This document shows positions 14,038-49,085 of a DNA stretch of 64,000 bases, in pieces (within the stretch, counting starts at the first letter, position 1; the number at the start of each line of letters is the position of its first letter). The stretch is taken from contig NZ_JAQNCY010000011.1 of assembly GCF_028368855.1 (NCBI RefSeq), positions 62,001 through 126,000 on the forward strand, written 5' to 3'. Below the pieces are notes generated by a model, which was not told the DNA's origin, searched no databases, and saw nothing but the letters and a program-made list of their open reading frames with translations. Both the position numbers and the translations under genes were made by a program. The stretch is from Leisingera sp. SS27 (GTDB lineage Bacteria; Pseudomonadota; Alphaproteobacteria; Rhodobacterales; Rhodobacteraceae).

Positions 14038-14226
14038 GCTCCCGCCTGTTCATGGGCAGTCCAGGGACTGCCCTTCACAGTTGGGCGTGGCCCTGTGCTG
14101 CGCACAGGGCAGGGAGAGGATTCTGCTGAGAATTCCGGTTCCATGACGTGCACCCGCAGCGCGCCAGCGCTGCCGGGCCCAACCGGGAGGGCAGCCTTTG
14201 GCTGTTCCGGAGCGGGCGGGAGAGCC
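14038..14226 (+). repeat. Structured intergenic repeat, copy 1
   Basis: It opens with GCTCCCGCC (14038-14046) and closes with GGCGGGAGAGCC (14215-14226), which can pair. Inside are hairpin GGGCAGTCC/GGACTGCCC (14054-14073), the core AGTTGGGCGTGG (14079-14090), hairpin GCCCTGTGC/GCACAGGGC (14090-14110), hairpin GCAGCGC/GCGCTGC (14156-14173), GCCCAAC (14177-14183, complement of the core) and hairpin CAGCC/GGCTG (14192-14204). It lies just after the 3' end of mbfA. Copies 2 and 3 share the plan with different stem sequences. Confidence 0.75.
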
Positions 14227-14239
14227 TGCGCTGCGGAAC

Positions 14240-15214
14240 TCAGCCGCTGCCGATCAGCATACCTGCACCCAGCACCAGCGCGCCGCCCAGAACCACCTGC
14301 ATTGTGGCGCGCCAGAACGGGGTTTCCATGAACTTGTTCTGGATCCAGGCGATGGCCCAGAGCTCAACAAAGACGATCAGCAGTGCCAGCGTGGTTGCGG
14401 TCCAGAATTCCGGGATCAGATAGGGCAGGGCGTGGCCGAGGCCGCCGACTGTTGTCATGATGCCGGATGCGAGGCCGCGTTTGATCGGTGAGCCGCGGCC
14501 GGAAAGTTCGCCATCATCCGAGGCCGCTTCGGTGAAGCCCATCGAGATGCCGGCCCCGACCGAGGCCGCCATGCCGACCAGAAAAGTGGTCCAGGTGTCC
14601 TGGGTGGCAAAGGCGGTGGCGAAGATCGGCGCCAGGGTGGAGACAGAGCCGTCCATCAGCCCGGCCAGCCCCGGCTGCACCCAGGTCAGCACGAACTGGC
14701 GGTGGGCGGCGCGGTCCTCGTCTGCGCGGGTGCCGTCGTCCAGATGCGCCTCCTGCAACTCCCCGGCGCGGGTCTGGTGGCCCGCCTCGGCAGCGGCGAG
14801 GTCGCCCAGCAGTTTGCGCGTCGCGGCGTCCTGGGTGCGGGCGGCGGCGGCGGTGTAGAAATGCTCTGCGTCGCGCTCCATCGCGCTGGCCTCATCGCGG
14901 ATGCGGTCGAGGCTCAGGTTCTCCATCAGCCAGACCGGACGGCGGGCATAGTAGCCCGCCACGTGCTCGCGCCGGATCAGCGGGATCGCCGGGCCGAACC
15001 GCGCCTCGTGCAGGGCAATGAGCTGGGCGCGGTGACCGTCCTCCTCTGCCGCCATGCCGTCGAACATCGCGGCAGAGGCGGGGTATTCACCGCGCAGCCG
15101 TTCGCCGTAACCGCGGTAGATGCGCGCATCGTCCTCTTCCGAGGAGATCGCAAGGGCGAGAATTTCCTGTTCTGATAGCTCCACAAAGTGCTTGCGCTGG
15201 GTGAAAAAACGCAT
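14240..15214 (-). CDS. mbfA: Membrane-bound ferritin-like iron exporter MbfA (erythrin-VIT1 family)
   Basis: A protein of 324 residues. The N-terminal half is an erythrin/ferritin-like domain with di-iron acidic clusters (ISSEEDDARIYRGYGE, AAEEDGHRAQL, AEAGHQTRAGEL). The C-terminal half is a VIT1/CCC1-type membrane domain (FLVGMAASVGAGISMGFTEAASDDGELSGRGSP, then hydrophobic helices). In Bradyrhizobium and Agrobacterium MbfA exports iron and protects against iron and peroxide stress; it is repressed by Irr. An iron control element is present 15 bp upstream of the start, supporting the same control here. Confidence 0.9.
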   Translation of the reverse strand: MRFFTQRKHFVELSEQEILALAISSEEDDARIYRGYGERLRGEYPASAAMFDGMAAEEDGHRAQLIALHEARFGPAIPLIRREHVAGYYARRPVWLMENLSLDRIRDEASAMERDAEHFYTAAAARTQDAATRKLLGDLAAAEAGHQTRAGELQEAHLDDGTRADEDRAAHRQFVLTWVQPGLAGLMDGSVSTLAPIFATAFATQDTWTTFLVGMAASVGAGISMGFTEAASDDGELSGRGSPIKRGLASGIMTTVGGLGHALPYLIPEFWTATTLALLIVFVELWAIAWIQNKFMETPFWRATMQVVLGGALVLGAGMLIGSG

Positions 15215-15228
15215 CTGCCGCCCCTCAA

Positions 15229-15245
15229 TTTAGAATAATTCTAAA
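15229..15245. promoter_or_regulatory. Iron control element (Irr box) of mbfA
   Basis: TTTAGAATAATTCTAAA is a perfect 17-bp dyad around a central A, matching the rhizobial/rhodobacterial ICE motif bound by Irr. It ends 15 bp upstream of the mbfA start, a repressor position. It is also in front of the divergent TetR gene at a distance of about 107 bp, which is less likely to be affected. Confidence 0.85.
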
Positions 15246-15351
15246 CATAACGGTTCCGCGAGGGAGCGCAAGGCGGTGCGGGTTCTGCTGTTGCAATGGA
15301 GCGGCGCAGGCTACATTAGGCGCAGACCCCTACGCAGCCAACGGAGCCCGC

Positions 15352-15969
15352 ATGAACCAGCAAGCCAGCGTCCTGCGCACCGGCCGGAAATTCGATCAGG
15401 TCCTGGACGGCGCGCGCGAGGTGTTCCTGGCGGACGGGTTCGAGGGCGCCAGCGTCGACAAGATCGCCAAGGCGGCGGGGGTCTCCAAGGCGACGCTCTA
15501 CAGCTATTTTCCCGACAAGCGGGTCTTGTTCATGGAAGTGGTGCGCTCTGCCTGCGTGCAGCAGGCGGATGCATCGCTGGAGCTGACACCGGGCAGCTGC
15601 GGGCCGCGGGATGTGCTGCGGGCGGCGGCGGAGCGGGTGCACGGAGTGCTGCTGGGTGGCTTCAGCCTGCAGCTGTTCCGCATCTTCGTGGCAGAGGCCG
15701 ACCGGTTCCCGGAGCTGGGGCCGATGTTTTATGAAAGCGGCCCGATGGTGCTGCATGGCGAGATCCGCGATTATATCGAGGCCGCGGCGGCGCGCGGCGA
15801 GCTGAAGATCGCGGATGCCGATCTGGCCGCGGCGCAGTTCATCGAGCTGTGCAAGGCCGATGTGTTCCTGCGGTTCCTGTTCAAGATCGACACTGAATTC
15901 TCTGAGGCTGAGCGCGAGCGGGTGATCAGCGGCGCGATTGACACTTTCATGGCGCGGTTCGGGGCCTGA
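15352..15969 (+). CDS. TetR/AcrR-family transcriptional regulator
   Basis: A protein of 205 residues with a clear N-terminal TetR helix-turn-helix (FDQVLDGAREVFLADGFEGASVDKIAKAAGVSKATLYSYFPDKRVLF). The C-terminal domain (RAAAERVHGVLLGGFSLQLFRIFVAEADRFPELGPMFYESG) is of the AefR-like TetR_C type. No target is obvious: it is divergent from mbfA and convergent with the cytochrome c' gene. Confidence 0.88.
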   Translation: MNQQASVLRTGRKFDQVLDGAREVFLADGFEGASVDKIAKAAGVSKATLYSYFPDKRVLFMEVVRSACVQQADASLELTPGSCGPRDVLRAAAERVHGVLLGGFSLQLFRIFVAEADRFPELGPMFYESGPMVLHGEIRDYIEAAAARGELKIADADLAAAQFIELCKADVFLRFLFKIDTEFSEAERERVISGAIDTFMARFGA

Positions 15970-15984
15970 GCCGGTCTTTCCCGG

Positions 15985-16461
15985 TTAGTGCGTGGTGAAG
16001 CTGTTGGGGGTCCTGCGGTAGGTCTCGTGGCAGCTGAGGCAGCCCTGCATCAGCCCGGGCAGAGTGCGGCGCAGGGCGGGCAGGGAGCGGGCGCTGAGGG
16101 CTCTGGCCGCAATTTCGGCTGATTTGGCCCGGGCTTCGAAATCATCCCAGGATGTCCAGATCTGCGGCCGGGCGTGGCTGCGCGGGTCCATCCTGTGTTT
16201 GCGGAACTGCTTGCGGATGCTGCTGGTGGATTTGATCAGCTGCCGCCGGGCGATGCGCGCCTTGCCCTGATCGAAGACGGCGCGCCCGGCCATCATGGCA
16301 GTGAGCACATCCATTGCGGCCTTTTGCGTGGTCATCAGGGTGATGCGTCGGGTCACATGCTTGCTGGCGCCGTCACCGGCAGTGACCGGGGCAGAAGGCC
16401 CGGTGGCAAGGGCGGCGAGGAGCGCAAGGCAGGCAAGCGGTTTCAATAGGCGCAGGGTCAT
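15985..16461 (-). CDS. Cytochrome c' family periplasmic haem protein
   Basis: A protein of 158 residues with a signal peptide (MTLRLLKPLACLALLAALATGPSAPVTAG). One haem-c site lies near the C-terminus, CLSCH at residues 141-145, as in four-helix-bundle cytochromes c'. The family binds nitric oxide and other gases in the periplasm, or carries electrons. It is basic (many Arg and Lys). The gene is divergent from imuB, with which it shares the LexA-box interval. Confidence 0.82.
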   Translation of the reverse strand: MTLRLLKPLACLALLAALATGPSAPVTAGDGASKHVTRRITLMTTQKAAMDVLTAMMAGRAVFDQGKARIARRQLIKSTSSIRKQFRKHRMDPRSHARPQIWTSWDDFEARAKSAEIAARALSARSLPALRRTLPGLMQGCLSCHETYRRTPNSFTTH

Positions 16462-16500
16462 GCTGCGGCTCCGGACCGGATTGACCGAATCGAATGATTA

Positions 16501-16515
16501 GAACAAAATGGGAAC
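16501..16515. promoter_or_regulatory. LexA (SOS) box, GAAC-N7-GAAC direct repeat
   Basis: GAACAAAATGGGAAC reads GAAC-N7-GAAC, equal to GTTC-N7-GTTC on the other strand, the alphaproteobacterial LexA consensus. It lies 58 bp upstream of the imuB start. This fits SOS induction of imuB, which is known for this gene in related bacteria. Confidence 0.8.
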
Positions 16516-16573
16516 ATCTGCACTGAAACTCCTGTAACCTGCCGTCTGCCGGCCCCTGCTGCGTGATCTGCCC

Positions 16574-18247
16574 ATGCCCCATCGCCGCATTCTGTCGCTG
16601 TGGTTTCCGCGCCTTGGCGCCGAACGCATTCTGCGGGCGGAGCGCGGCGGCATTGCCGGGCCGCTGGCCGTTGCCGAGGAAGTGTCCAACACCCAGGTTA
16701 TTTCCGCGTTAAACCTTGCCGCCTCGGCAGAGGGGCTGCAGGCCGGCCAGCCGTTGCGCGATGCCCATGCGATGTGCGCGGGCCTGGTGGTGCGGCCGCG
16801 CAACCGGGCGGCGGAGGCGGCGTTTCTGGCGGCGCTGAGGCGCTGGGCGGGCAAGTTCAGCCCCTGGGTGGCGGAGGCCGGGGAGGACGGGCTGACCATC
16901 GACCTTACCGGTTGCGCGCATCTGTTCGGCAGCGAGGCGGCGCTGATGGAGACGGCGGGGCAGGACTGTGCGGAAATGGGCCTGAGCGTGCGGATGGGGC
17001 TGGCGGACACCCTGGGCGCGGCCTGGGCGCTGGCGCGCTATGCAGGCGAGGAGGCGGCGCCGGAGCGGTCAGGCGATGCCATCGACCAGGAGGCGCGCGC
17101 GACCCGTGCGCGGGCGCAGAAGCGCCAGAGCGTCAAGCGGCGCCACTGGACCCGGGGCGGCGCGGCGCCGCAGCTGCAGGCGGTGGTGCCGCAGCTGGGG
17201 CGGATTGCCGAAACCGGCCAGGCCTATGGCGCGCTCGCCCCCCTGCCGGTGGCGGCCTTGCGTCTGGACAGCGCCACGGTGGCGCAGCTGAACCGGCTGG
17301 GGCTCAGACGGATCGGCGACCTGCTGGGCCAGCCGCGGGCCAGCCTGGCGCGCCGGTTCGGGCAGGGGCTGGTGCTGCGGCTGGACCAGGCGATGGGCAG
17401 CGCGCCGGAGCCGGTTTCGCCCGCGCGCAGCCCGGACCATTTTGCGGTGCGGCTGACCCTGCCGGAGCCGATCGGGCTGATGGAGGATCTGCTGGCGGGC
17501 GTTGACCGGATGCTGCCGCGGCTCTGTGCCCGGCTGGAGGCGCGCGGCAAGGGCGCCCGCGTGCTGCGGCTGGAGGCGCACCGCTGCGATCAGGAGATGG
17601 AGGCGGTGACACTGGGCCTGGCCCGTGCCAGCCGCGATCCGGCCCGCATCCGGCCGCTCTTGGAGATGAAGCTGGAGCAGATCGATGCGGGCTACGGCAT
17701 CGACATGCTGCGGCTGGAGGTCCTGCAGGCCGAAGCCATTCACGCCCGCACCCCGGCGGGCCATCTGCAGGCAAGTGCCGCGGCGCGGGCGCGGCAGGAG
17801 GATGGCACCGCGCTGGAGGATCTGATCGGCCGGCTGGGCGCGCGGCTGGGGATGGAGGCCATCACCCGCTATCACCCGGCGGAGAGCCATATCCCGGAGA
17901 AAACCTTCACCGTGCAGGCGGCGGCCTGGTCAGAGCCTGCCGCCGGCGACTGGCCGCGGCCGCCGCGCCCGCGGCCGTTGCTGTTGTGGCGGCCGGAGCT
18001 GGTCCACGCGCCGGATGTGCCGCAGGTGCCGGAGCAGTTCCGCTGGCGCGGCCGTGACTGGGCACTGGCAGAAGCGGAGGGGCCGGAGCGGATCGCGCCG
18101 GAGTGGTGGCTGGAAGACCCGGAATGGCGCAGCGGGGTGCGCGATTACTGGGTGGTGGTGACGGATTGCGGCACGCGGCTGTGGCTGTTCTTTGCCCATG
18201 GCGGGGCGCTGTCGCCGGGCTGGTTCTGCCACGGCTCGTTTGCGTGA
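16574..18247 (+). CDS. imuB: DNA polymerase Y-family protein ImuB (mutagenesis cassette)
   Basis: A protein of 557 residues. The Y-family palm region begins RILSLWFPRLGAERI, where active DinB enzymes have the metal-binding DxDxF; the second acidic motif is replaced by EDGLTIDLTGCAHLFG. Loss of catalytic residues is the mark of ImuB, an accessory factor that links ImuA and DnaE2 to the beta clamp in error-prone lesion bypass. A helix-hairpin-helix region (LNRLGLRRIGDLLGQPRASLARRFG) and a little-finger domain follow. Unusually, no imuA precedes it and no dnaE2 follows; only a LexA box and a cytochrome gene lie upstream. Confidence 0.88.
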   Translation: MPHRRILSLWFPRLGAERILRAERGGIAGPLAVAEEVSNTQVISALNLAASAEGLQAGQPLRDAHAMCAGLVVRPRNRAAEAAFLAALRRWAGKFSPWVAEAGEDGLTIDLTGCAHLFGSEAALMETAGQDCAEMGLSVRMGLADTLGAAWALARYAGEEAAPERSGDAIDQEARATRARAQKRQSVKRRHWTRGGAAPQLQAVVPQLGRIAETGQAYGALAPLPVAALRLDSATVAQLNRLGLRRIGDLLGQPRASLARRFGQGLVLRLDQAMGSAPEPVSPARSPDHFAVRLTLPEPIGLMEDLLAGVDRMLPRLCARLEARGKGARVLRLEAHRCDQEMEAVTLGLARASRDPARIRPLLEMKLEQIDAGYGIDMLRLEVLQAEAIHARTPAGHLQASAAARARQEDGTALEDLIGRLGARLGMEAITRYHPAESHIPEKTFTVQAAAWSEPAAGDWPRPPRPRPLLLWRPELVHAPDVPQVPEQFRWRGRDWALAEAEGPERIAPEWWLEDPEWRSGVRDYWVVVTDCGTRLWLFFAHGGALSPGWFCHGSFA

Positions 18248-18324
18248 CCGGGCGCGCGGACAGTTCGGCGCGGGGCGAAGGGTTTTGCTTGGGTGTCCCT
18301 GCGCAAACCGCATAGAGTAGGGAT

Positions 18325-19014
18325 ATGATCACACCGCGTTTCGACATTCTTGGCCAGGCCATCAGCGACGCCAGCCGCACGCAGATGCTGTGCGAGCTGA
18401 TGGAGGGCCGCGCCTATACCAACAAGGAGCTGGCGGCTGCTGCTGGGGTGACGCCGCAAACCGCCTCGGCGCATTTGCGCCTGCTGCAGGACGCAGGCTT
18501 GGTGGTGGCGGAAAAACGCGGCCGCTGCGTCTATCACCGGCTGGCCGGGGCAGAGGTGGCGCACGCGCTGGAGCAGCTGGCGGCGATTGCGCCTGCGGAC
18601 AGCCTGCACCGGGCCCAGCAGCGCAAAGCCGGCGGACTGGCACAGCTGCGCAGCTGTTACGACCACCTGGCAGGCCCGCTGGCGGTCGCGATGACCCGCG
18701 CCTTCCTGGACCGCGGCATGCTGGTGGAAGAGCAGGGCGCGTTTCGCGCGGAGCCTGCCGGGGAATGGCTGAAACTGGGGGTGGTTTTGCCGGAGCGGCC
18801 GGGCCGCCAGCCCTTTGCCCGGCCCTGTCTGGACTGGACCGAGCGCAAGCTGCATGTGGCCGGGCCGATGGGACGGCAGATCCTGGATCACGCCCTGGGC
18901 AGCGGCTGGGTCAAGCGGCACCGGCACAAGCGCGGGCTGCTGCTGACCGCCCCCGGGCGGGTGGCGCTGGAGCAGATCCTGGGGGTGCAGTGCGGGGAGC
19001 TGGCGGCAGCCTGA
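18325..19014 (+). CDS. ArsR-family winged-helix transcriptional regulator
   Basis: A protein of 229 residues with the ArsR-type winged helix at the N-terminus (SDASRTQMLCELMEGRAYTNKELAAAAGVTPQTASAHLRLLQDAGLVVAEKRGRCVYHRLA). No metal-binding Cys cluster of ArsR/SmtB type is visible, so it is probably a non-metal sensor. The long C-terminal part (LARPCLDWTERKLHVAGPMGRQILDHALGSGWVKRH) is shared by a subgroup of ArsR-like proteins in proteobacteria. The target is unknown. Confidence 0.82.
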   Translation: MITPRFDILGQAISDASRTQMLCELMEGRAYTNKELAAAAGVTPQTASAHLRLLQDAGLVVAEKRGRCVYHRLAGAEVAHALEQLAAIAPADSLHRAQQRKAGGLAQLRSCYDHLAGPLAVAMTRAFLDRGMLVEEQGAFRAEPAGEWLKLGVVLPERPGRQPFARPCLDWTERKLHVAGPMGRQILDHALGSGWVKRHRHKRGLLLTAPGRVALEQILGVQCGELAAA

Positions 19015-19129
19015 GCGGCGGGAAAGCCGGGCGGAACAGGGCATTTGCACCTGTGCGTATCCTGCACCACACGAAAATTCGAAGGGGATAAACCTTGATT
19101 TGCCGGGGAAATGACGCAACCTGTTATCT

Positions 19130-19474
19130 ATGAGCTTTGATCAGGTGCAGCCTTTTCCCGGATCTCCCATACCTCAGCAAGTCGCCTTTGACCGCCGGGA
19201 ACTGTCGGTCATCATGACGTTGTACGGCCGCATGGTCGCGGCGGGAGAATGGCGTGATTACGGGATTTCCTCCTTGCGTGACCTGGCAGTTTTCTCCGTT
19301 TTCCGGCGCACGGCAGAGCATCCGCTTTACCGGATCGAGAAGCGCCCCAAGCTGCGGCAGCGGCAGGGGCAGTATTCGGTCGTCGGCATGGATGGGCATA
19401 TCCTGAAGCGCGGGGCGGATCTTAAGACCGTGCTGAGGGTGCTGGAGCGTAAGCTGATCCGCTCCGTGGAGTAG
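19130..19474 (+). CDS. DUF2794 domain-containing protein
   Basis: A protein of 114 residues matching the alphaproteobacterial DUF2794 family: VAFDRRELSVIMTLYGRMVAAGEWRDYGI, SVFRRTAEHPLYRIEKRPKL and YSVVGMDGHILKRGADL. The function is unknown. It is convergent with the NlpC/P60 gene, and two palindromes lie between their stops. Confidence 0.88.
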   Translation: MSFDQVQPFPGSPIPQQVAFDRRELSVIMTLYGRMVAAGEWRDYGISSLRDLAVFSVFRRTAEHPLYRIEKRPKLRQRQGQYSVVGMDGHILKRGADLKTVLRVLERKLIRSVE

Positions 19475-19499
19475 CCGCAGGGCCTGCGGCGGAGCGGGA

Positions 19500-19545
19500 C
19501 CGGAATTTTCACAAAATTCCGGCCAAAAATCTTTGTAAGATTTTT
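19500..19545. terminator. Tandem palindromes between convergent genes (bidirectional terminator)
   Basis: CCGGAATTTT-CAC-AAAATTCCGG (19500-19522) is followed directly by AAAAATCTT-TGT-AAGATTTTT (19525-19545). Both have A/T tracts on both strands, so each can act as an intrinsic terminator in either direction for the DUF2794 and NlpC/P60 genes. Confidence 0.75.
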
Positions 19546-19569
19546 GCCGCCTGTGGCAGGCGCCGGGGT

Positions 19570-20394
19570 CTACGCCAGCCGTTTGTGTGCGGTGACCGGG
19601 CCATCGCCCTGGGCTGCGATCCGTTCGATTGCCGCGGCGATGGGCTCAATGGCAACTGCCATATCGTGGGCGTTGGCGTGGATCAGGGTTTCTGCGTCCC
19701 GCACCAGTGCAACATGGCCCTTCCAAAACAGAAGATCGCCGCGCTGGTAGTCTCCGGCGGGGGCGGGGTTGCCCAGCTCTGCCTCCTGCATATCGCTGTC
19801 GCCGGGACAAGCTGTGCCGCAGGACAGCAGGGCCGCCTGCACAAGGCCGGAGCAGTCAATGCCAAAGCGGCTGTTGCCGCCCCAAAGGTAGGGGGTGCCG
19901 AGGAACAGCTCTGCCACCTCCGCCGGATCGTCGGCATGGGCTCCCAATGGTGACAGATGGCGGGCCGGGATATAGCCGAGGTTGGTGTCCGCGAACCGGC
20001 CTTCACCGCCAAGGACCTGCACCCGGCTGCCGTGGCTGAGCGCAAGGGTCTCCGGTGATTTGAAATCATCTGCGGAATAGGCATGGGTGGCGGGGGCGCT
20101 GACCCAATGCGTGGCCTCGAACGGCGCGGCCAGGGCGGCACTGGGGACATAGCCCACATAGGAATCCTTGGCGGCCTGCAAAAACGCCCAGCCGTCGCGG
20201 TGGTCATAGACCGTGACCGGCTCGCCGTAGACCAGCTGGCGGTCGCGGGCGCCGTCAGGCGCGCGCAAGAGGTCCGCGACAGGGACGCCGATGCGGGCAG
20301 CGGTGTCCTCCACCCGTTCCAGCCCGCCGGGCGCGTCCTGCAGGTGCGCGGCAGCGATGCGGTCATTCATGGGCAAGCGGCGGGGGTCAGCCAT
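19570..20394 (-). CDS. NlpC/P60 family cell-wall peptidase with SH3-like domains
   Basis: A protein of 274 residues from ATG 20394. Two SH3b-like segments (GEPVTVYDHRDGWAFLQAAKDSYVGYVP and LSHGSRVQVLGG) precede an NlpC/P60 domain. The catalytic Cys is in GGNSRFGIDCSGLVQAALL and the His in FWKGHVALV. Such enzymes cleave gamma-D-Glu-diaminopimelate bonds in peptidoglycan peptides. There is no signal peptide, so it may act on recycled muropeptides in the cytoplasm, which fits its neighbour leucyl aminopeptidase four bases upstream. The two form an operon. Confidence 0.87.
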   Translation of the reverse strand: MADPRRLPMNDRIAAAHLQDAPGGLERVEDTAARIGVPVADLLRAPDGARDRQLVYGEPVTVYDHRDGWAFLQAAKDSYVGYVPSAALAAPFEATHWVSAPATHAYSADDFKSPETLALSHGSRVQVLGGEGRFADTNLGYIPARHLSPLGAHADDPAEVAELFLGTPYLWGGNSRFGIDCSGLVQAALLSCGTACPGDSDMQEAELGNPAPAGDYQRGDLLFWKGHVALVRDAETLIHANAHDMAVAIEPIAAAIERIAAQGDGPVTAHKRLA

Positions 20395-20398
20395 AAGA

Positions 20399-21781
20399 TC
20401 AGAGCTCCAGCATCTCTGGCAGCGCGGCAAACAGCGCGCGGGCGCCTTGCAGGGCGCCGCCCTTGGGCCGGGCGGGGGACGCGTTGGGGGTCCAGCCGTA
20501 GATGTCGAAATGCATGTAGCGGGTATCGCCGGCGAAGCGGCGCAGGAACAGGGCGGCGGTGATCGAGCCTGCGAACCCGCCCGAAGGCGCATTGTCCAGA
20601 TCGGCGATGCCGGGTTCGATCATGCTCTCGTAAGGCTCGTGGAAGGGCATCCGCCAGACCGGGTCGGCGGTGCGCGCTGCGCTGACGGCAAGCGCTGCGG
20701 CGTCGCCCTCGTGACCGGTATAGAAAGGCGACAGGTCCGGGCCGACGGCAACGCGCGCCGCGCCGGTGAGAGTGGCCATGGAGACCAGCAGGTCCGGCGC
20801 GTCCTCTGCCGCCAAGGCCAGCGCGTCGGCCAGCACCAGCCGGCCCTCGGCGTCGGTGTTGTTGTTTTCAACCGTCAGCCCCTTGCGCGACATCAGCACA
20901 TCACCGGGACGGAAGGCGGAGCCGGAGACGGCATTTTCCACCGCGGGAATCAGCACCCTGAGCTGCAGGTTCAGTCCGGCATCCATGATCATGCGGGCAA
21001 GGCCCAGCACGTTGGCAGCGCCGCCCATGTCCTTTTTCATCAGCGCCATGCTGTTTCCGGGCTTCAAGTTCAGCCCACCGGTGTCGAAACAGACGCCTTT
21101 GCCCACCAGGGTCAGCTTGGGGCCGGTGCTGCCCCAGCGCAGATCGATCAGCCGCGGTGCGCGGTCCGAGGCGCGGCCGACGGTGTGGATCAGCGGGAAG
21201 TTCTGTTCCAGCAGATCCTCGCCCAGGATAACGGAGGTTTTGGCGCCGAACTCCTGCGCAAGGGATTCGGCCGCGGTTTGCAGCTCTGCCGGGCCCATGT
21301 CGGAAGCTGGGGTGTTGATCAGGTCGCGGGTCAGGCATTCGGCAGCGGCCAGCGATTCCACGGCGGCGGCATCCAGGGCTTCGGGCGCCTGCAGGGCGGC
21401 GGTTTCGCCTTTGGCGTCCTTGTAGCGCCCGAAGCGGTAGGCGGTCAGCAGCCAGCCGAGGGCTTCGCTGGCGCCGTCCTCTGCCGGCAGGCCAGAGGCG
21501 ATACGGTAGGTGCCTGCGGGCAATTTCTGCGCCGCTTCGGCCAGCACAAAGCGGCGGCGCGCGCGCTGGGCGGCGCTGCCGTAGCCCGCCAGGGCCATTT
21601 CAATCCGGCCTTCGGCATCCGGCACCGTCAGCGCCTGGCCGCAGGCGCCGGTGAAGCCCTGCGCCGATGCCCAGGCCTTAACGCGCTGCGGCTGGCCAGA
21701 GAGCCAGCTGTCGAGGGCATCGCTTGCAATAACATGCACAGGGCAGGCGTCAGGGCCGGGTGCGGCAAAGACTGGCGGCAT
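20399..21781 (-). CDS. Leucyl aminopeptidase family (M17) metallopeptidase
   Basis: A protein of 460 residues from ATG 21781. M17 metal and catalytic motifs are intact: LVGKGVCFDTGGLNLKPG, MKKDMGGAANVLG and the signature NTDAEGRLVLADALALA. M17 enzymes remove N-terminal residues from peptides with two Zn or Mn ions, and are hexameric. The N-terminal domain is short and unlike PepA of Escherichia coli, as in the alphaproteobacterial subgroup. It is followed by an NlpC/P60 enzyme, which suggests peptide recycling. Confidence 0.87.
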   Translation of the reverse strand: MPPVFAAPGPDACPVHVIASDALDSWLSGQPQRVKAWASAQGFTGACGQALTVPDAEGRIEMALAGYGSAAQRARRRFVLAEAAQKLPAGTYRIASGLPAEDGASEALGWLLTAYRFGRYKDAKGETAALQAPEALDAAAVESLAAAECLTRDLINTPASDMGPAELQTAAESLAQEFGAKTSVILGEDLLEQNFPLIHTVGRASDRAPRLIDLRWGSTGPKLTLVGKGVCFDTGGLNLKPGNSMALMKKDMGGAANVLGLARMIMDAGLNLQLRVLIPAVENAVSGSAFRPGDVLMSRKGLTVENNNTDAEGRLVLADALALAAEDAPDLLVSMATLTGAARVAVGPDLSPFYTGHEGDAAALAVSAARTADPVWRMPFHEPYESMIEPGIADLDNAPSGGFAGSITAALFLRRFAGDTRYMHFDIYGWTPNASPARPKGGALQGARALFAALPEMLEL

Positions 21782-28441: not shown

Positions 28442-28574
28442 GCTCCCGCCCGTCGTCAGGTATTGAAAATACCTTCCTCCCGTTGGGCGTGGCACCGCGC
28501 CATGCGCGGTGCCACGCCTAAGGCTGCTGCCGTTGCTCTGGCTTTGCCAGGGCGGCGGGCAGGCGCGGGAGGGC
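28442..28574 (+). repeat. Structured intergenic repeat, copy 2
   Basis: It opens with GCTCCCGCC (28442-28450). Hairpin AGGTATT/AATACCT (28458-28474), the core CGTTGGGCGTGG (28481-28492) and a long hairpin CGTGGCACCGCGC/GCGCGGTGCCACG with loop CAT (28488-28516) follow, and it ends GCGGGAGGGC (28565-28574). It is shorter than copies 1 and 3, lacking the distal GCCCAAC strand. It sits between convergent genes, 39 bases after the DUF4139 stop. Confidence 0.7.
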
Positions 28575-42316: not shown

Positions 42317-42335
42317 TCTTTCCAAGGAAGATGGC

Positions 42336-42365: not shown

Positions 42366-42895
42366 TATTGGTTTGCGGAGAGGCGCCGCATAACGGACAG
42401 ATCGCAGGCTGTTGCATGGCCCATGGCGCGTTTGATGCCTGGCAGCATCGCTGCCCCGTTCATGGCAAATGACAGCTCAATCAGACCGGCATCACCGTAA
42501 AGGCCGGTAACAACGCTTCGGGCTTCAACGTCGTCTTCGCGCCGCGAGGTGACCGCGTCGGCCAGCCGGACAACGGGGGCCAATTCTGTCGGCAAGGCCT
42601 GGGAATCTGCCTGTAGAATCGCGTTGATCAGTTGCTCACCCAAGCCGCTGGCCCGCGCCAGATTGATCTCTGCCTCAACGCAGATGCCGCAATCGGCGGC
42701 CAGTGCCCCGCGCAGGCGGGCAGCGTGGTAGGCGGCTGCCGGCACCTGGCGGTTAGGGTCCAGAAAGCCGAAAATCTTGTTGTAACGCGACAGCAGGGAG
42801 AGCTCCGTCCGCGCGATGTAGCGGACGTAATCCAGGCTAACGCCAATCCGCCGTTCTGCGCGGCGGATGAAAAATGTGGCAACTGCAGTCAGCAT
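42365..42895 (-). CDS. Carboxymuconolactone decarboxylase-like protein
   Basis: A protein of 176 residues. A CxxC pair occurs as DCGICVEAEINLA, the position of the AhpD/CMD redox site, but the His of CxxCxxxH is Glu here, so peroxidase chemistry may be altered. Helices around ISLDYVRYIARTELSLL and AGLIELSFAMNGAAMLPGIKRAMG-like sequence fit the all-helical CMD fold. The function is unknown. It is next to the GlxA-like regulator, convergent with the mgd operon. Confidence 0.72.
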   Translation of the reverse strand: MLTAVATFFIRRAERRIGVSLDYVRYIARTELSLLSRYNKIFGFLDPNRQVPAAAYHAARLRGALAADCGICVEAEINLARASGLGEQLINAILQADSQALPTELAPVVRLADAVTSRREDDVEARSVVTGLYGDAGLIELSFAMNGAAMLPGIKRAMGHATACDLSVMRRLSANQ

Positions 42896-42993
42896 CGCCG
42901 TGTCCTCTCAAAACAGGTTGCACCCATAGGGAGAGTTTAGCAGCCGTCAGCGGCCGTGGTACGGGGACTTGCGGCGAAACTGCCCCGAATGCG

Positions 42994-43998
42994 TCAGGCG
43001 GAAGGGATCGGCCGGTTGTCCTGAACCCGGAACAGGTTCACCTTACGGCGTTCCTCCTGCGGGGTTACGCCGAAGCTTTCCCGGTAGTGCTGCGATAGGG
43101 TGGAGGAGGTGGCGTAGCCCACCGCATTCGCGATCGAGGTGATCGAGTCGCGGGAGTACATCACCAGCTGGCGGGCGGCGTTCATCCGCAAAGTGCGGTA
43201 ATAGATCGCCGGGCTTTGGCCGGTGGCGGATTTGAAGCTGCGTTCCAGCTGGCGCGGCGAGACGCCGATTTCGCTGGCCGCGTCGCGGATCGAAACCGGA
43301 TGCTCCAGGTTGTCGGCAAACAGTTCAACCGCCTTGGCGACCGGTGGCGGCAGGCTGTCGGCGGTGCTGTCGGTCTTGAAGGCGGGGATTTTCTGGCGGA
43401 CGCCTTCAGCCCGGACCATCGGGTGCTGGAACCAGCAGGCGACCTCTGTCATCACGGCGTCGCCCATGGCGCGCTCGATCAGTTTGAGCGACAGGTCGAA
43501 CATCGCGGCGGCGCCGCTGGCGGTGAACCGGCGGCGGTCCAGCACGATCACGTCATCGACGGTGGCGAGGGACGGAAATTCGGCGGTGAAGGCTGCTTTG
43601 TAGCACCAGTGGACCGAGCAGCTGTGGCCGTCGAGCAGGCCGGAGCGGGCCAGCGGGAACACCCCGCCAGAGACCGCGCCCATGGTGGTGCCGTGACGGG
43701 CCAGATGGCGCAGCTTGCCGTTGGAGGCCTTTGGGTCCTCAAACTTGCCTTGCGGGCTGGACAGGAGAAACAGGGTGTCGACGCTGTCGGCCTCGTCCAG
43801 GGCACAGTCGGGCTGGAACGCCACATTGGCGGAGGCGTTCACGCTGCTGCCGGTTTCGGACACCAGTTTCCATCGGAAAGTCTCAGAGCCGGCAATTTCA
43901 TTTGCCGCGCGCAGGGGTTCGATGGCCGAGGTCAGGCAGGCCATTGGAAAGCCGGGAAAAATCAGAAAGCCGAGTGTCATGGTGTTATCGCGCTGCAT
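42994..43998 (-). CDS. GlxA-family (DJ-1/PfpI plus AraC) transcriptional regulator
   Basis: A protein of 334 residues. The N-terminal DJ-1/PfpI-like half (TLGFLIFPGFPMACLTSAIEPLRAANEIAG) lacks a clear catalytic Cys and serves as a ligand sensor. The C-terminal AraC-type HTH carries HPVSIRDAASEIGVSPRQLERSFKSATG and SITSIANAVGYATSSTLSQHYRESFGV. The layout matches GbdR-type regulators of glycine betaine and methylated-amine catabolism. It lies between mgdABCD and tmm and may control one or both. ATG 43980 is an alternative start. Confidence 0.85.
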   Translation of the reverse strand: MQRDNTMTLGFLIFPGFPMACLTSAIEPLRAANEIAGSETFRWKLVSETGSSVNASANVAFQPDCALDEADSVDTLFLLSSPQGKFEDPKASNGKLRHLARHGTTMGAVSGGVFPLARSGLLDGHSCSVHWCYKAAFTAEFPSLATVDDVIVLDRRRFTASGAAAMFDLSLKLIERAMGDAVMTEVACWFQHPMVRAEGVRQKIPAFKTDSTADSLPPPVAKAVELFADNLEHPVSIRDAASEIGVSPRQLERSFKSATGQSPAIYYRTLRMNAARQLVMYSRDSITSIANAVGYATSSTLSQHYRESFGVTPQEERRKVNLFRVQDNRPIPSA

Positions 43999-44091
43999 GA
44001 GGTGGATTATAGCTTGCGAAGTAAGATTCGCACAGCGGCGAAGAGGTGCCTGCGCCGTACAGGAAGGGGAAAACGGCGCAGGCGTATCTGC

Positions 44092-45438
44092 CTAGTTCTG
44101 CAGATATGCGTCCAGCGAGTCGTCCAGGGCGTCCTTCCACGGAGTGTGGTGCACGGGGGCCATGGTGCCGGTGATCACTGATTTGTAGGAGTTGTTGCGG
44201 AAGGCCATGATGTCCTGGGCCTTGTGCCCTTTCCATTCATAGAAGGCCTGGCAGGCGCCAGCCACGTCGAAGGTCGGGTAGTCCGTCTCCTCGATCAGTT
44301 CCAGCACATAGTCGCCCTGGTATTTGATCGCATATTTGACGTCGTCCGAAGCTTCCTCGCGCGCTTCCCGCTCTTTCACGTCGGCCAGCAGGGTTGCCTT
44401 GTCCGAAGGGATTTCGATCTTGCCCATGATCGCGTCGCGGACCCACCAGGCCTGGGCGTCGAACATGTTGAAGGTGAACCACTGATCCTGCATGCCCAGA
44501 TAGAACATCTTGGGATTATGAGCATAGACCACGCCCTTATACAGGTCGGCGGTGGCCAGGCGGTTGGCGGTTTTCAGGCGCAGATCGTCCGGCAGGAAGT
44601 TGAAGAAGTGCTTGTAGCCGGTGCAGAGGATGATCGCGTCGACCTCTTTCTGGGTGCCGTCAGCGAAGGTGGCAGTGTTGCCGGAAACAGATTCCAGCGC
44701 CGGAACCTCGTCCCAGTTGTCCGGCCATTTGAAGCCCATCGGTGCCGAGCGGTAGGAGGTGGTGATCGACTTGGCGCCGTATTTCCAGCATTGGGAGCCG
44801 ATGTCTTCGGCGGAGTAGGAGGCGCCGAGGATCAGGATGTCCTTGCCTGCGAATTCGCGGGCATCGCGGAAGTCATGGGCGTGCAGCACGCGGCCGTTGA
44901 AGGTGTCGAAACCGGGGTAGAACGGCACGTTCGGGGTCGAGAAGTGGCCCGAGGCGCAGATCACGTGGTCGAAGTCTTCCTTGTAGGTGCTGTCTTTTCT
45001 GTGGTCATGCACCGTGACAGTGAAGCTGCCCTTGTCCTCGTTGTATTCAACCCAGCGGATCGGGGAGCTGAAGCGGATCCACTTGCGTACGTCCGCCTTC
45101 TTCACCCGGCCCTCGATATAGTCGAACAGAACGGCGCGTGGCGGGTAGGAGGCGATCTGCTTGCCGAAGTGTTCCTCGAACGAATAGTCGGCAAATTCCA
45201 GACCTTCTTTTGGACCGTTCGACCACAGGTAGCGGTACATCGAGCAGTGCACCGGTTCGCCGTTCTCGTCCAGGCCGGTGCGCCAAGTGTAGTTCCACAG
45301 GCCGCCCCAGTCGTCCTGCTTTTCAAAGCAGACAATTTCCGGGATTTCCTCGCCCTTTTGGGCTGCGGACTGGAAGGCGCGCAGCTGGGCCAGGCCTGAT
45401 GGGCCGGCGCCGATGATGGCAATACGTTTCTTGGTCAT
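44092..45438 (-). CDS. tmm: Trimethylamine monooxygenase
   Basis: A protein of 448 residues, very close to the characterised Roseobacter Tmm along its whole length: [22 protein letters not shown] (FAD), [60 protein letters not shown] (NADPH) and the FMO motif [13 protein letters not shown]. It oxidises trimethylamine to the N-oxide with NADPH and oxygen. The next steps (TMAO demethylase) are not in the window. GGGAGAAC lies before the ATG, and a bipartite operator sits right upstream. Confidence 0.95.
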
Positions 45439-45450
45439 CTGGTTCTCCCG

Positions 45451-45496
45451 TTGGTTCGGACCAATATTCTAATTTGGATCATTTGGTCTGGTCCAA
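45451..45496. promoter_or_regulatory. Bipartite operator upstream of tmm (A and B sites)
   Basis: Site A is TTGGTTCGGACCAA (45451-45464), a dyad TTGGT-N4-ACCAA starting 12 bp upstream of the tmm ATG. Site B is TTGGTCTGGTCCAA (45483-45496), 32 bp further on. The same two-site arrangement occurs in front of dmmD. It is a FadR/PdhR-like GntR motif, so the GntR gene at 46909-47637 is a likely partner. Confidence 0.75.
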
Positions 45497-45523
45497 TTAG
45501 GTCCAAACTTGCACCAATAAGTC

Positions 45524-45539
45524 AACATTTTTTCACATG
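45524..45539 (+). promoter_or_regulatory. AACATTTTTTCACATG motif upstream of the receptor gene
   Basis: This 16-mer matches AACAATTTTTCACATG at 53474-53489, upstream of the Amt gene, at 15 of 16 positions. It lies 61 bases before the ATG at 45601. It could be a shared activator site or promoter element for plus-strand genes of the cluster. Confidence 0.35.
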
Positions 45540-45600
45540 CGGAATGTTTTTGGGCGCAATTGGACTGGAAACACGTTGTTTTATTGGTAGGATTTCAAAC

Positions 45601-46902
45601 ATGACGACGAATAGTTTTGTGCACCAGCTGACCGCCCGCGCGGCCCTGCCGCGGCTGTCTGTGGGGATGGCAGAATCAGTGAATATTGGTTTCCTTGGTC
45701 CGCTTTCGGGGCCGGTGGAGAGCTGGGGTCTGCCTGGATTGAACGGCTGCCGAATCTGGGAGGACGGCCTTAATAAGGCTGGCGGGGTGCTGATTGGAGG
45801 GCGCCGGTATCCGATCCGGATCCACTCCTACGATTGCGGCTACGATCCCGAACGCGCGCTGGAAGGTGCGGTAGAACTGGTCCAGAGTCACAACGTCAAG
45901 CTGATGCTGATGCTGGGCGGTGACACCTTCGCGCCGGTGCGCGATTTCCTGATGCGCAACAAGGTGCTGACCTCCACCCTGCTGCCCAGCGATCTGTCAC
46001 CCGACACGCCATATCTGATTGCGCCAAGCGAGGCGCATCCGATCCAGAACGTGACCGGCGTGGCATGGCTCGCGGAGAACAGGCCGGAGCTGAAGACGGT
46101 TGCGCTGTGCAGTCAGGCCGATCTGCTGGGGCTGCCGGCGCAGGCGGTCTACCGGGCGGCGTTCAAGGCCGAAGGCCTGCAGATCCTGCGGGAGATACAG
46201 TATGATCCCAGCGCCAGTGATCCGGTGCCTGTGGTGGATCCGATGCTGGAGAGCGGCGCTGATATCCTGTGCTGGTGCTCATCTTATGCGCCGATGGTGC
46301 ATGCGATGACCGAATATGCCCATGCCAAGGGATTCAGGGGGCAGATCATCAGCTGCACCATGGATGGCTATGACCGGCTGGTGGCGCGGACATCGCCGGA
46401 CTTCATGGAAGGTGTGGTGTTCCAGTTCCCGGATTTCGACGACCCGATGCTGCGGGAGAAGGCGTTTTTCTTCAACCGGCCGCATGTGTTCTATGAGGAA
46501 TACAACCGGCGTTTCCCGGGCAGCTGGTCTGCGGTGAGCTGGGAATATGTGGCGATCCTGGATATCTGGCACAGCGCGGTGGAGAAGGCGGGATCGGTCG
46601 CGCCGCCATCTGTGCTGGCGGCAATGAAGCAGTTGGGTCATGTCACCCATGCCTTTGGTCATGCGGAATGGTGGGGTGAAGAAATATTTGGTATTTCCAA
46701 CGCCTTGGTGGGCGATTGGCCGGTGGTGACAATCCAGGAGGGTAAGGCGCGGATTGCAGATTTCAAGTCGATCCCCGCCTGGCTGTCGCAGCATTCCACC
46801 CTGCTGAAAGCGGAGATGGAGAGGCTGGGGCAGCTGTGGCATCAGCGGCTGGAAAGCGATGCGCCGGGCAGCGAAGTCAGCTCGCGCGCGGTCGAGACTT
46901 AA
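45601..46902 (+). CDS. Cytoplasmic type I periplasmic-binding-fold receptor (AmiC/urea-binding-like)
   Basis: A protein of 433 residues from ATG 45601. It has the Leu/Ile/Val-binding (ABC-transporter substrate-binding) fold: VNIGFLGPLSGPVESWGLPGLNGCRIWEDGLNKAGGVLIGGRRYPIRIHSYDCGYDPERALEGA, shown in parts, and SAVSWEYVAILDIWHSAVEKAG. There is no signal peptide, unlike transport binding proteins, and the context holds no permease genes. Proteins of this layout, such as AmiC, are ligand sensors for regulators. It is divergent from tmm and next to a GntR gene, so it may sense an amine. The ligand is unknown. Confidence 0.7.
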   Translation: MTTNSFVHQLTARAALPRLSVGMAESVNIGFLGPLSGPVESWGLPGLNGCRIWEDGLNKAGGVLIGGRRYPIRIHSYDCGYDPERALEGAVELVQSHNVKLMLMLGGDTFAPVRDFLMRNKVLTSTLLPSDLSPDTPYLIAPSEAHPIQNVTGVAWLAENRPELKTVALCSQADLLGLPAQAVYRAAFKAEGLQILREIQYDPSASDPVPVVDPMLESGADILCWCSSYAPMVHAMTEYAHAKGFRGQIISCTMDGYDRLVARTSPDFMEGVVFQFPDFDDPMLREKAFFFNRPHVFYEEYNRRFPGSWSAVSWEYVAILDIWHSAVEKAGSVAPPSVLAAMKQLGHVTHAFGHAEWWGEEIFGISNALVGDWPVVTIQEGKARIADFKSIPAWLSQHSTLLKAEMERLGQLWHQRLESDAPGSEVSSRAVET

Positions 46903-46908
46903 GCGGGT

Positions 46909-47637
46909 TCAGGCCTCCTGCAGCAGCAGCTTCTGCTCGTCGATCAGGTGCAGCTTGATGAACTCCACCGCCGATTCCACATCGCGTGAGGCGATGGCAT
47001 TGAAAAGCGTGTTGTAGCGTTTCTGATAGTCCTGAATCCGCTGCGGCGTCAGGTGGCGGCGGCGCAGTGCGGTGCGGTAGGACAAGCGGCAGGCCTCGAT
47101 CGTCAGCTCATAACAGGAATGCAGCAGCGGGTTGCCGGTGCCCTCAGCGATCTTGCGGTAGAGATCCTCCTCCGCATCGATGAATTCTCCGGGATCGGTG
47201 CGCACGGCCTCAACCCGGGACAGGATCTGATCCAGCTCCTCGATCTGGCGCGGGGTCATGTTGATCACAGCAAGGCGCACCATCTCCGGTTCCAGAATGC
47301 CGCGCACCACCAGGTGGTCGAGCGGTGAGACTTCGTTTGCCAGAGAGCTGTAGGAAGTCGCTTCGGGCTTGGGGTCGGAGCGGAATTTCACAAAACTGCC
47401 GGAACCTGCACGGCGGTGGATGACGTTCTGGGTGGCCAGAACGTCCAAAGCCTCTCGCACGGTATTGCGGGCGACGCCCAGTTCGGACGCAAGCGTGCGT
47501 TCCGACGGCAGCCGCGTATCCACCGGGTAGGTGCCGGATTTGATCCGGGCAAACAGCGTGTCGATCACCACCTGCACGGTGGCGCCAACGGAGTGGGTGG
47601 TCAGGATCTGCGAGGTGGTGTCTTCCGCTGAGCTCAT
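46909..47637 (-). CDS. GntR-family regulator, FadR subfamily (FCD domain)
   Basis: A protein of 242 residues from ATG 47637 (MSSAEDTTSQILTTHSVGATVQVVIDTLFARIK). The N-terminal winged helix is typical: SGTYPVDTRLPSERTLASELGVARNTVREALDVLATQNVIHRRAGSGSFVKF. The FCD domain follows (VRGILEPEMVRLAVINMTPRQIEELDQILSRVE and DAEEDLYRKIAEGTGNPLLHSCYELTIEACR). It lies seven bases beyond the convergent receptor gene. Members bind TTGGT-Nx-ACCAA-type dyads, which occur before tmm and dmmD. Confidence 0.87.
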   Translation of the reverse strand: MSSAEDTTSQILTTHSVGATVQVVIDTLFARIKSGTYPVDTRLPSERTLASELGVARNTVREALDVLATQNVIHRRAGSGSFVKFRSDPKPEATSYSSLANEVSPLDHLVVRGILEPEMVRLAVINMTPRQIEELDQILSRVEAVRTDPGEFIDAEEDLYRKIAEGTGNPLLHSCYELTIEACRLSYRTALRRRHLTPQRIQDYQKRYNTLFNAIASRDVESAVEFIKLHLIDEQKLLLQEA

Positions 47638-48224
47638 GATGTGTCTTTGTTCCGGGCTGTCTGAGCGGGAATCCCTGCTCCTGAGTGCTGTGCACACGCT
47701 GCGTATGCCGGAGCGGGTGGCGGTTTTGCAGGTGTTTTTCACAGCGGTGATTGGTGTTCAGATTAGCGGTTCCAATGCAGGTCAGCAAGGATGCTCAGGC
47801 GAATTGGTTCTGTGCTGCGGTGTTGTCACGGGTTGTCAAAAGGAGTCTTAGCTTGCTGTTTTTACGCCATTTTGGATTCTCATGCCGGTGCATTGCGTTG
47901 GTAAGCCGCAGAATTGGTGCCTTTTTGGTTCACGAGCCGCAACGACCAGCCAGGGCGGGGTTCCCTTGGGGGTGGCGATGTGTGCCTGCCCGTCTGAGTT
48001 GCGCAGAATTCCGGCGCGGGAAATGGGCCGCTATACGGGGCGCTGGACTTCAGATGGCAGACGCAGCGCAGCGGCAACAATTTTCTTTCCTGTGGCGGTA
48101 GGGGGTTGGGAAAAATGAGTAACCGCAGTAAAATAATTTTCGCAGCATTCCTTGCGCTGGGGAAAGTTTTTACATATCGGCTGCTGCGCGCTTGTCAGAC
48201 GCCATCCATAAGGAAGATAACACA
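47638..48224. other. Intergenic region of about 590 bp with no gene
   Basis: No convincing ORF. It contains three TTGGT half-sites (TTGGTAAG, TTGGTGCC, TTGGTTCA at about 47899-47936) and the X-type palindrome near 48130. It lies between the divergent GntR gene and the XRE-cupin gene and must hold both promoters. Confidence 0.5.
48128..48142. promoter_or_regulatory. Palindrome GTAAAATAATTTTCG upstream of the XRE-cupin gene
   Basis: Its core AAAATAATTTT (48130-48140) is a dyad. It resembles GGAAAATAATTTTCC before amt (53528-53542) and GGAAAATAAGTTTCA before mgsA (55243-55257). It starts 97 bp upstream of the GTG of the XRE-cupin gene, a position for autoregulation. Confidence 0.5.
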
Positions 48225-48881
48225 GTGGCTAAACTCAAAGACGATAGTGACGCAGTGGCAAATAACCTTTCCCAAGATCCGCACCGGGTCCGCGATGGTG
48301 CAGAAAAAGTTCTGGAAGTGGCAATCGGCCGCGAAGTTCGGTCGTTCCGGCGGCAGCAGGGGATTACGGTGGCGGAGCTGGCCAACCTGACCGGGCTGTC
48401 GATCGGGATGCTGTCGAAGATCGAAAACGGCAATACCTCGCCGTCGCTGACCACTTTGCAGCTGCTGGCCAACGCGCTGAGCGTGCCGATCACGTCATTT
48501 TTCCGGCGTTTCGAGGAGAGCCGCGAGGCGGTGCACACCAAATCCGGTGAAGGCGCGGAGACCGAGCGCGCAGGCACACGGGCGGGCCACCAGTACCAGC
48601 TGCTTGGTCATCTGGGCGCCAATGCCTCTGGCGTGATGGTGGAGCCTTACATGATCACCCTGACCGAGGAGTCGGATGTGTTCCCGACCTTCCAGCATGA
48701 CGGAGTGGAAATGCTCTATATGCTGGAGGGTGAGGTGGATTACCGGCACGGCGACAAGGTGTTTCCGCTGAAGCCTGGGGACACGCTGTTCTTTGACGCG
48801 GATGCGCCGCACGGGCCCGAGGAGCTGGTCAAGCTGCCGGCGCGCTATCTGTCGATCATTTCCTACCCGCAATCGAGCTGA
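48225..48881 (+). CDS. XRE-family regulator with C-terminal cupin domain
   Basis: A protein of 218 residues from GTG 48225, preceded by AAGGAAG; TTG 48192 lacks a ribosome site. The XRE-type HTH is REVRSFRRQQGITVAELANLTGLSIGMLSKIENGNTSPSLTTLQLLANALSVPITSFF. The cupin half has FQHDGVEMLYMLEGEVDYRHGDKVFPLKPGDTLFFDADAPHGPEEL with metal-binding-like His and Glu. PuuR-like regulators of this type respond to amines. A palindrome shared with amt and mgs promoters suggests it controls methylamine assimilation. Confidence 0.85.
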   Translation: MAKLKDDSDAVANNLSQDPHRVRDGAEKVLEVAIGREVRSFRRQQGITVAELANLTGLSIGMLSKIENGNTSPSLTTLQLLANALSVPITSFFRRFEESREAVHTKSGEGAETERAGTRAGHQYQLLGHLGANASGVMVEPYMITLTEESDVFPTFQHDGVEMLYMLEGEVDYRHGDKVFPLKPGDTLFFDADAPHGPEELVKLPARYLSIISYPQSS

Positions 48882-48895
48882 CGCACGGCGGCGGT

Positions 48896-49085
48896 GCTCC
48901 CGCCGGTTCCGCGGCATCAGAAGATGCCCCTCACCGTTGGGCGTGGCGCCGCGCGATGCGCGGCGCGGTTGCGTTCTGCGGCTGCCTTGCCGGCTGCCGC
49001 CTGCAGCGCGCCTTGCGCGCTGCCCGGCCCAACGCCGCGCGGGCGGCAGGCGCAGCCTGCGGCCTGATGCTAGGGCGGGAGAGCC
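48896..49085 (+). repeat. Structured intergenic repeat, copy 3
   Basis: It opens with GCTCCCGCC (48896-48904) and closes with GGCGGGAGAGCC (49074-49085). Inside: hairpin GGCATC/GATGCC (48913-48928), the core CCGTTGGGCGTGG (48934-48946), hairpin GCGCCGCGC/GCGCGGCGC with loop GAT (48946-48966), hairpin GCAGCGCGC/GCGCGCTGC (49003-49023), GCCCAAC (49027-49033) and hairpin GCAGGC/GCCTGC (49046-49060). It lies between the convergent XRE-cupin and dmmC genes. Confidence 0.78.

Follow-up and report, generated by a model that had tools for sequence, protein, structure and literature searches.

What kind of element is an intergenic repeat whose hairpins keep their pairing while their letters change? 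The question is raised by a 64,000-nt stretch of the Leisingera sp. SS27 genome, here called the window (G000:C3:62001-126000, within the 4.8-Mb genome G000), in which a preliminary description reported three copies of such a repeat, at 14038-14226, 28442-28574 and 48896-49085, and offered an RNA element, a bidirectional terminator or a mobile repeat as possible identities. The three copies are present at these positions and belong to a hairpin repeat family of about 90 units in this Leisingera-like genome, as found with two covariance models. Judged from its letters, the repeat is likely an RNA element, and the reading we favor, if with slightly less than even confidence, is that of an old and mostly vertically inherited family of transcript-end or antisense-barrier modules acting at the RNA level.

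The opening, core and closing strand of the preliminary description were recovered in all three copies. The core also has its distant complement in each, which reads GCCTAA in copy 2 and GCCCAAC in the two others. The GTGG after the core, in contrast, proved to be one version among CCGG, CGGG, ATGG and others, and the copy itself is not the basic unit: each is made of two units of about 80 nt, CTCCCGC-hairpin 1-TTGGGC-hairpin 2, placed face to face. At the copy-1 site both units occur in 17 of 21 genomes, the second is absent in L218, L231 and L232, the first is broken in L225, and many genomes have other sequence between the two; since units are lost singly and the spacer is variable, the half, with its one pair of hairpins, is the unit. 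When two units face each other, CTCCCGC pairs with GCGGGAG and TTGGGC with GCCCAA, giving a symmetrical four-armed fold. A facing partner, as defined by a pattern criterion, is found in 38/88 units and none in 50/88. The window copies fold better than shuffled sequence with z-scores of -8.6, -6.9 and -2.4 for copies 1, 2 and 3 (0, 0 and 1 of 200 shuffles folded as well), so that copy 3 is only modestly better.

We refer to the strand of a unit that begins with CTCCCGC as + and to the strand reading 5'-hairpin 2-GCCCAA-hairpin 1-GCGGGAG-3' as F. Laid out in full, F is 5'-(G+C-rich hairpin 2)-CCNNGCCCAA-(hairpin 1)-GCGGGAG-NN-C-rich tail-3'. The NN after GCGGGAG varies freely, and over the next seven positions C accounts for 37-72% and A for 1-6% of the bases. 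Hairpin 1 on F is built from CCC/GGG, an AA/GC loop, a foot of 3-4 bp (mostly C-G then G-C), in many cases a tandem G.A/A.G step, then a stem whose sequence is free and a terminal loop of 3 nt (87/155) or 4 nt (54/155). The stem has up to 16 positions and, free as its letters are, hairpin 1 measures 33-36 nt in 68 of 94 units. On the + strand TTGGGC is followed by NNGG and then by the G+C-rich hairpin 2. The near-constant letters genome-wide are CTCCCGC and TTGGGC, each in 85 of 88 units, a constancy that is partly circular because the first of our models scores both motifs favorably.

That model, R1, describes the 5' module, and the second, R2, describes hairpin 1 on the opposite strand. R1 gave 101 matches in the own genome at E<=1 and R2 gave 94 at E<=0.1, disposing of the possibility that the window held the only copies. 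Eight R2 matches were new relative to R1; seven look canonical and lie beside a gene end, while the eighth (L402) is degenerate with no gene end beside it. An exact search of the genome for the 11-nt core of the preliminary description gave 22 matches, 18 of them inside 17 elements of the family (one palindromic element matched on both strands) and four outside. Three sets are used below. The 81 elements are R1 matches of at least 21.1 bits with facing pairs merged, after removal of a contig-edge match (C9:305), a false-looking match (C29:94090) and all weaker matches; the 94 units are matches of at least 21 bits, less three without a recognizable core; and raising the limit to 25 bits leaves the 88 units. 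Because paralogs and orthologs are related, counts of units are not counts of independent events. Protein coding was rejected because overlaps between the 81 elements and called genes never exceed 15 nt, although a later R2 match, in L404, has a 25-nt overlap with a gene call.

Selection on the structure is supported by sequence comparisons at two depths. In an alignment of 41 gapless 48-nt sequences from the own genome and other genera (41 distinct of 44, three near-duplicates being left out) the covariation score of hairpin 1 was 0.387, compared with 0.147 +/- 0.013 in shuffles (0/500 as high) and 0.09-0.14 with slid partners. In the same alignment paired cells made up 74.1% versus 58.0% in shuffles, and cells changed on both sides numbered 154 versus 69.9. 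Sixteen of the 19 pairs covary and the CCC/GGG pairs are invariant. RNAalifold, given no structure, recovered only 9 pairs. The stems thus covary above both shuffled and slid controls, as is generally asked of a structured RNA, and the concern that they might not covary falls away. Among close relatives, the real substitutions in 22 ortholog pairs preserve the F fold to a greater degree than when their positions are randomized (12/22 pairs at p<0.05; combined p 6e-10); for the + strand fold the combined p was 5e-6, with 6/22 pairs at p<0.05. A comparison with G006, a diverged species that is about 80-83% identical at two window sites, was more modest: the 26 equal-length pairs among 53 ortholog pairs contained 206 unchanged base pairs, 9 compensated, 16 changed to A.C and 7 to G.U on +, and 37 broken. 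CTCCCGC was identical in 49 of the 53 pairs and TTGGGC in 43, some of the core differences being detection errors. One locus (L124) has a compensated change in the core stem, GTTGGGCACGG with CCGTGCCCAA. The preliminary description had read the pattern as selection on structure rather than sequence; the first half of that statement is borne out, but two short motifs are kept as well.

Hairpin 1 is also strand-polar, a property newly seen here. On F most of the imperfect pairs in this hairpin are G.U and G.A, which makes them A.C and C.T on the other strand. In scoring these, the pairing routine treats G.T and A.C alike and counts wobbles flanked by Watson-Crick pairs. The 88 own units have 30 A.C and 2 G.T in hairpin 1 on +, which is to say 30 G.U and 2 A.C on F, whereas hairpin 2 on + has 10 G.T and 5 A.C (Fisher p 3e-5). 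The F fold is the stabler in 78/88 units, by a mean of 3.2 kcal/mol; for hairpin 2 it is the + strand that is slightly stabler. A tandem G.A/A.G step occurs on F in 28/88 units and on the other strand in none, against a dealt-partner control with a mean of 12.3 and a maximum of 21. The same is seen in 82 units from 11 genomes, each of another genus (two G027 units, L264/L273, being counted twice): F carries 31 G.U and 6 A.C wobbles, the other mismatches on F are purine-purine in 79 cases and pyrimidine-pyrimidine in 7, and the F fold is stabler in 74/82. Tandem G.A steps were found on F in 53/80 and on the other strand in none, a moderate excess over the control (mean 40, maximum 46). Counted genome by genome, + has more A.C than G.U in 7 of the 11, neither occurs in 3, and the reverse holds in G035 (0 : 1). 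Among orthologs of the window units the A.C : G.U counts on + were 10:0, 4:0, 12:0, 10:1 and 11:1 in five units (one L240 row of this table is spurious), and the 20 orthologs of copy-1 unit A showed no bias (1:1). Mutational bias is an unlikely source of the polarity, given that hairpin 2 has none and that the polarity ignores the orientation of neighboring genes.

The units sit at gene ends. At least one gene 3' end is found at 78 of the 81 elements, with the nearest stop codon at a median of 22 nt (within 40 nt in 66 elements). Elements lie between convergent genes in 51/81 cases, between co-directional genes in 14 and 13, and between divergent genes in 3; the baseline for convergence in the window is 11 of about 61 neighboring pairs, a hand count on our own gene calls with gap length unmatched. 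In 65/81 it is the 3' end of a gene that adjoins the CTCCCGC side, and F therefore points antisense into that gene. The claim that all three window copies lie beyond gene 3' ends was right for copies 2 and 3, which are between convergent genes, and only half right for copy 1, which by our gene calls is 3' of the gene at 14240-15214(-) but 5' of that at 13030-13965(-).

The family is old and patchily spread. Every one of 21 genomes searched within the genus carries it, with 46 to at least 71 matches each at E<=0.1, and in a family survey with one genome per genus at least 17 of 149 genera, our own included, had a match at E<=0.001 (the searches of 61 and of 149 genomes used stricter filters). 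When the 81 own elements were compared with unit-bearing loci of G006 (at most 78 of its 80 matches), both flanks corresponded for 43 elements, one flank for 8 and neither for 30. Present mobility, as implied by the mobile-repeat option, is therefore unsupported, with most elements at shared places in a diverged species. Of 11 named Leisingera loci, 9 carry an intact copy 2 with site and orientation unchanged, the remaining two having an internal deletion (L088) or being cut by a contig end (L083); no unit was seen by eye at the corresponding place in 13 loci from Phaeobacter, Ruegeria and relatives. A single query taken from copy 2 matched no phage sequence; it matched two Parasedimentitalea plasmids in part. 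Twenty loci were recovered for the copy-3 site, where L253 and L254 have no second unit and a decayed first unit; in L253 the core is also lost and TTTTTT directly follows hairpin 2. On the G006 chromosome (C1) the units are unevenly spread, the interval 3.03-3.62 Mb, for example, being without a match at E<=0.01.

We favor a role at the RNA level because F folds with G.U and G.A pairs, stop codons are near, convergent gene pairs are enriched and L253 has its T-tract. The observations beneath this reading are the anatomy, covariation, hairpin 1 polarity, location and age of the family; it further supposes, as we infer, that F is transcribed, that RNAs end at the units and that some factor reads CTCCCGC/TTGGGC. 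The active form would be the transcript of F. As RNA polymerase moves toward the end of the neighboring gene, the two-hairpin F RNA might halt it or, alternatively, might stop 3' exonucleases after Rho-type termination further on; in either case RNAs would end at the unit and no antisense transcript would run into the adjoining gene. Two facing units would form a barrier in both directions, and where a unit stands alone its hairpin 2 may cover the opposite direction. A more specific version, which we put forward as a rather unlikely proposal, is an RNA module restricted to this clade and polar in its strand (GCCCAA-hairpin with tandem G.A-GCGGGAG). It would protect the 3' ends of genes from antisense transcription and would be a transcript-end signal of a new, non-intrinsic type, present at some 90 gene ends per genome and read by a putative factor.

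Several observations weigh against a transcript-end role: (i) terminator-like sites numbered 0 at each of the three window copies on both strands; (ii) hairpin 1 on F is followed by no T-tract but by a C-rich stretch; (iii) at least 5 T in the 10 nt after hairpin 2 occur in only 6/50 single units; (iv) the kept state of both motifs is in part built into the search; and (v) the polarity is equally strong where no called gene points along F (F is better in 15/16 (+,+) units), for which a DNA-strand role is the simpler explanation. The last point leads to the chief rival, in which the family is a REP-like repeat (repetitive extragenic palindrome) whose F strand folds as single-stranded DNA, which was spread by an enzyme now lost, and whose motifs and hairpin length were set by that enzyme or by a continuing role of the DNA strand. 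G.T and tandem G.A stabilize single-stranded DNA hairpins too, and some 90 dispersed copies with common sub-sequences and facing pairs, a patchy spread over genera and a polarity independent of neighboring genes are all in keeping with this idea. We nevertheless consider it improbable, if still the strongest competitor. The Y1_Tnp domain (PF01797) has no match in the own genome (controls positive in 5/14) and is absent from 21 of 30 other carriers, being present in 9, so that a REP mobilized by a REP-associated tyrosine transposase (RAYT) was rejected. Moreover, most sites are common to G006, the fold is still kept where a dead repeat would not need upkeep, and orientation follows the replication fork only weakly (46/69 units in G006, a hand count; p 0.008), an excess behind which gene orientation may lie. 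The lack of Y1_Tnp and the continuing upkeep speak against a mere fossil, not against a function of the DNA strand.

An ordinary bidirectional intrinsic terminator with unusual hairpins would fit the convergent-gene enrichment, since intrinsic terminators described in another alphaproteobacterium lie between convergent genes in 34% of matching ends versus 15% of intergenic regions (PMC7566282), and compensation through G.U has a reported precedent in Bacillus terminators (PMC5381666). A few single units do have a T-tract after hairpin 2 (on +, T averages 2.52/10 in single and 1.03/10 in paired units). At the window copies, though, no hairpin is directly followed by a T-tract on either strand, so that the classical intrinsic (Rho-independent) type was rejected there and the bidirectional terminator of the preliminary description was not upheld; the F tail is C-rich rather than T-rich, and a terminator needs neither two fixed motifs nor a near-fixed hairpin length. 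We consider this reading quite unlikely. Just below it we would place the idea that a nucleoid or topology protein recognizes CTCCCGC and TTGGGC in the DNA and that the hairpin arose as a by-product of palindrome-copying mutation. The motifs are indeed the most constant part of the ortholog pairs, but copying mutation is strand-symmetric and would not yield the G.U/A.C and G.A/C.T polarity, and the length of hairpin 1 is narrow despite variable letters. The least probable of all, and hardly to be expected, is a family of small RNAs acting in trans: conserved motifs lie beside stable hairpins on one strand, yet the copies stand beside unrelated genes and have no Rfam match. A sigma-70-type scan at the window copies found no promoter, and none was expected from that scan.

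How does the family relate to known repeats? We found no description of it in the literature searched or in Rfam; at the gathering score Rfam 15 gave 0 matches in the window and 0 in 20 further unit loci, with sub-threshold matches only, among them RF03089 (cold-seep-1), which spans copy 2 and was rejected at 15.7 bits against a cut-off of 125.8. Closest in kind are the transposase-less CGTC-tagged REPs of alphaproteobacteria (Di Nocera et al. 2013), reported as short palindromic units, many in facing dimers, 3' of genes or between convergent genes, with no dedicated transposase and mostly alphaproteobacterial, many of them being called plausible RNA elements with their action left open (PMC3733652). 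The present units share the extragenic location at 3' ends, the facing dimers and the lack of a dedicated transposase. As described there, CGTC REPs have 8-9 bp stems starting with A/T pairs, a 4-5 nt loop, a CGTC (or TGTC, CCTC) tag at one end and a CCA-type tail (PMC3733652), whereas here there are two hairpins per unit, the CTCCCGC and TTGGGC motifs and a longer hairpin 1 whose foot is mostly C-G then G-C, and only 21/88 own units have a CGTC-type tag at the equivalent position; the family therefore falls outside the tag and stem definition. GTAG REPs and bacterial interspersed mosaic elements (BIMEs) with RAYT are likewise dispersed extragenic palindromes in inverted pairs, but they differ in the transposase and in the GTAG tag, which our consensus lacks. 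Paired uptake sequences serving as terminators in Neisseria and Pasteurellaceae are described as facing pairs, enriched between convergent genes, of a single short sequence that base-pairs with an inverted copy of itself (PMC1852404); here the stem letters are free and the window copies have no T-tract.

Integron attC sites carry constant boxes in the order RYYYAAC ... GTTRRRY. GTTGGGC and GCCCAAC fit these boxes, and a folded single strand with free stem letters is common to both systems; attC was nonetheless rejected, the boxes here being inverted in order and their outer G/C belonging to the foot of hairpin 1, where it varies (CTTGGGC and TTTTGGGC copies). CTCCCGC/GCGGGAG could also be read as the inverted ends of a miniature inverted-repeat transposable element, but the space between two units is free. 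Since the family is large, covaries clearly, keeps two motifs fixed and its hairpin length nearly so, and is defined in its strand, whether the element acts as RNA or DNA, and on which strand, becomes testable; if the RNA reading is true, a marine bacterial group would have a new sort of gene-end signal with a putative reader. Sequence alone suffices for the G.U/A.C polarity test, which could be applied to any other repeat family.

Table 1. Units of the three window copies, with their model matches and parts
Unit	Positions	Strand	Model matches	Parts	F strand
Copy 1 unit A	14039-14110	+	R1 72.7 bits (+); R2 14039-14086, minus, 40.7 bits	CTCCCGC 14039-14045; hairpin 1 14046-14080; TTGGGC 14081-14086; hairpin 2 14090-14110	minus
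Copy 1 unit B (facing unit A)	14156-14222	-	R1 39.9 bits (minus); R2 14177-14222, plus, 37.2 bits	hairpin 2 ~14156-14173; GCCCAA 14177-14182; hairpin 1; GCGGGAG 14216-14222	plus
Copy 2 unit A	28443-28514	+	R1 79.7 bits; R2 28443-28488, minus, 45.8 bits	CTCCCGC 28443-28449; hairpin 1; TTGGGC 28483-28488; hairpin 2 common to unit B	
Copy 2 unit B	28489-28571	-	R1 36 bits (minus); R2 only 12.8 bits, plus, E 0.62	shared hairpin 2; GCCTAA; longer hairpin 1; GCGGGAG ending 28571	
Copy 3 unit A	48897-48969	+	R1 73.4 bits; R2 48897-48942, minus, 34.9 bits	CTCCCGC 48897-48903; hairpin 1; TTGGGC 48937-48942; hairpin 2	
Copy 3 unit B	49003-49081	-	weak R1 (48991-49089, minus, 17.7 bits, E 0.018); no R2 match	hairpin 2; GCCCAA 49027-49032; long hairpin 1 (42 nt); GCGGGAG 49075-49081	

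Other recurring features adjoin the units. Just beyond a unit there is often a second repeat, in which TTTGCTGAGANGC precedes a hairpin of the CTTAAGGGCAGG type; it has 10 exact genome matches (G000:C1:996820, C7:59944, C23:326334, C26:209079 and six more) versus 0 for a reversed control pattern, and was seen by eye in L176, L039 and L048. A third recurring stretch, TTCACCTTTGnnAAAATACTCCGGGGGTGAGGC...GAGGGGGCAGCGCCCCCTG, was noticed by eye 3' of several single units (L194, L201, L184, L050). At the copy-1 site, L230 and L233 have in common about 900 bp of extra sequence between the units that looks coding by eye. Nearby, a palindromic TTGACCAATTGGCAAA-type stretch at window positions 13985-14001, upstream of the Mem_trans (auxin-efflux type) gene 13030-13965(-), is almost unchanged in 21 genomes (orthologs L213-L233) and operator-like. 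Close to copy 3, at about 49103-49136 on the minus strand and just past the gene 49190-50236(-), inspection by eye showed a stem, ACTGCCG...CGGCAGT, that encloses a 13-nt loop and is followed by a T-rich tail; it is missing from the terminator scan list because its loop exceeds 8 nt, and it is conserved in many orthologs.

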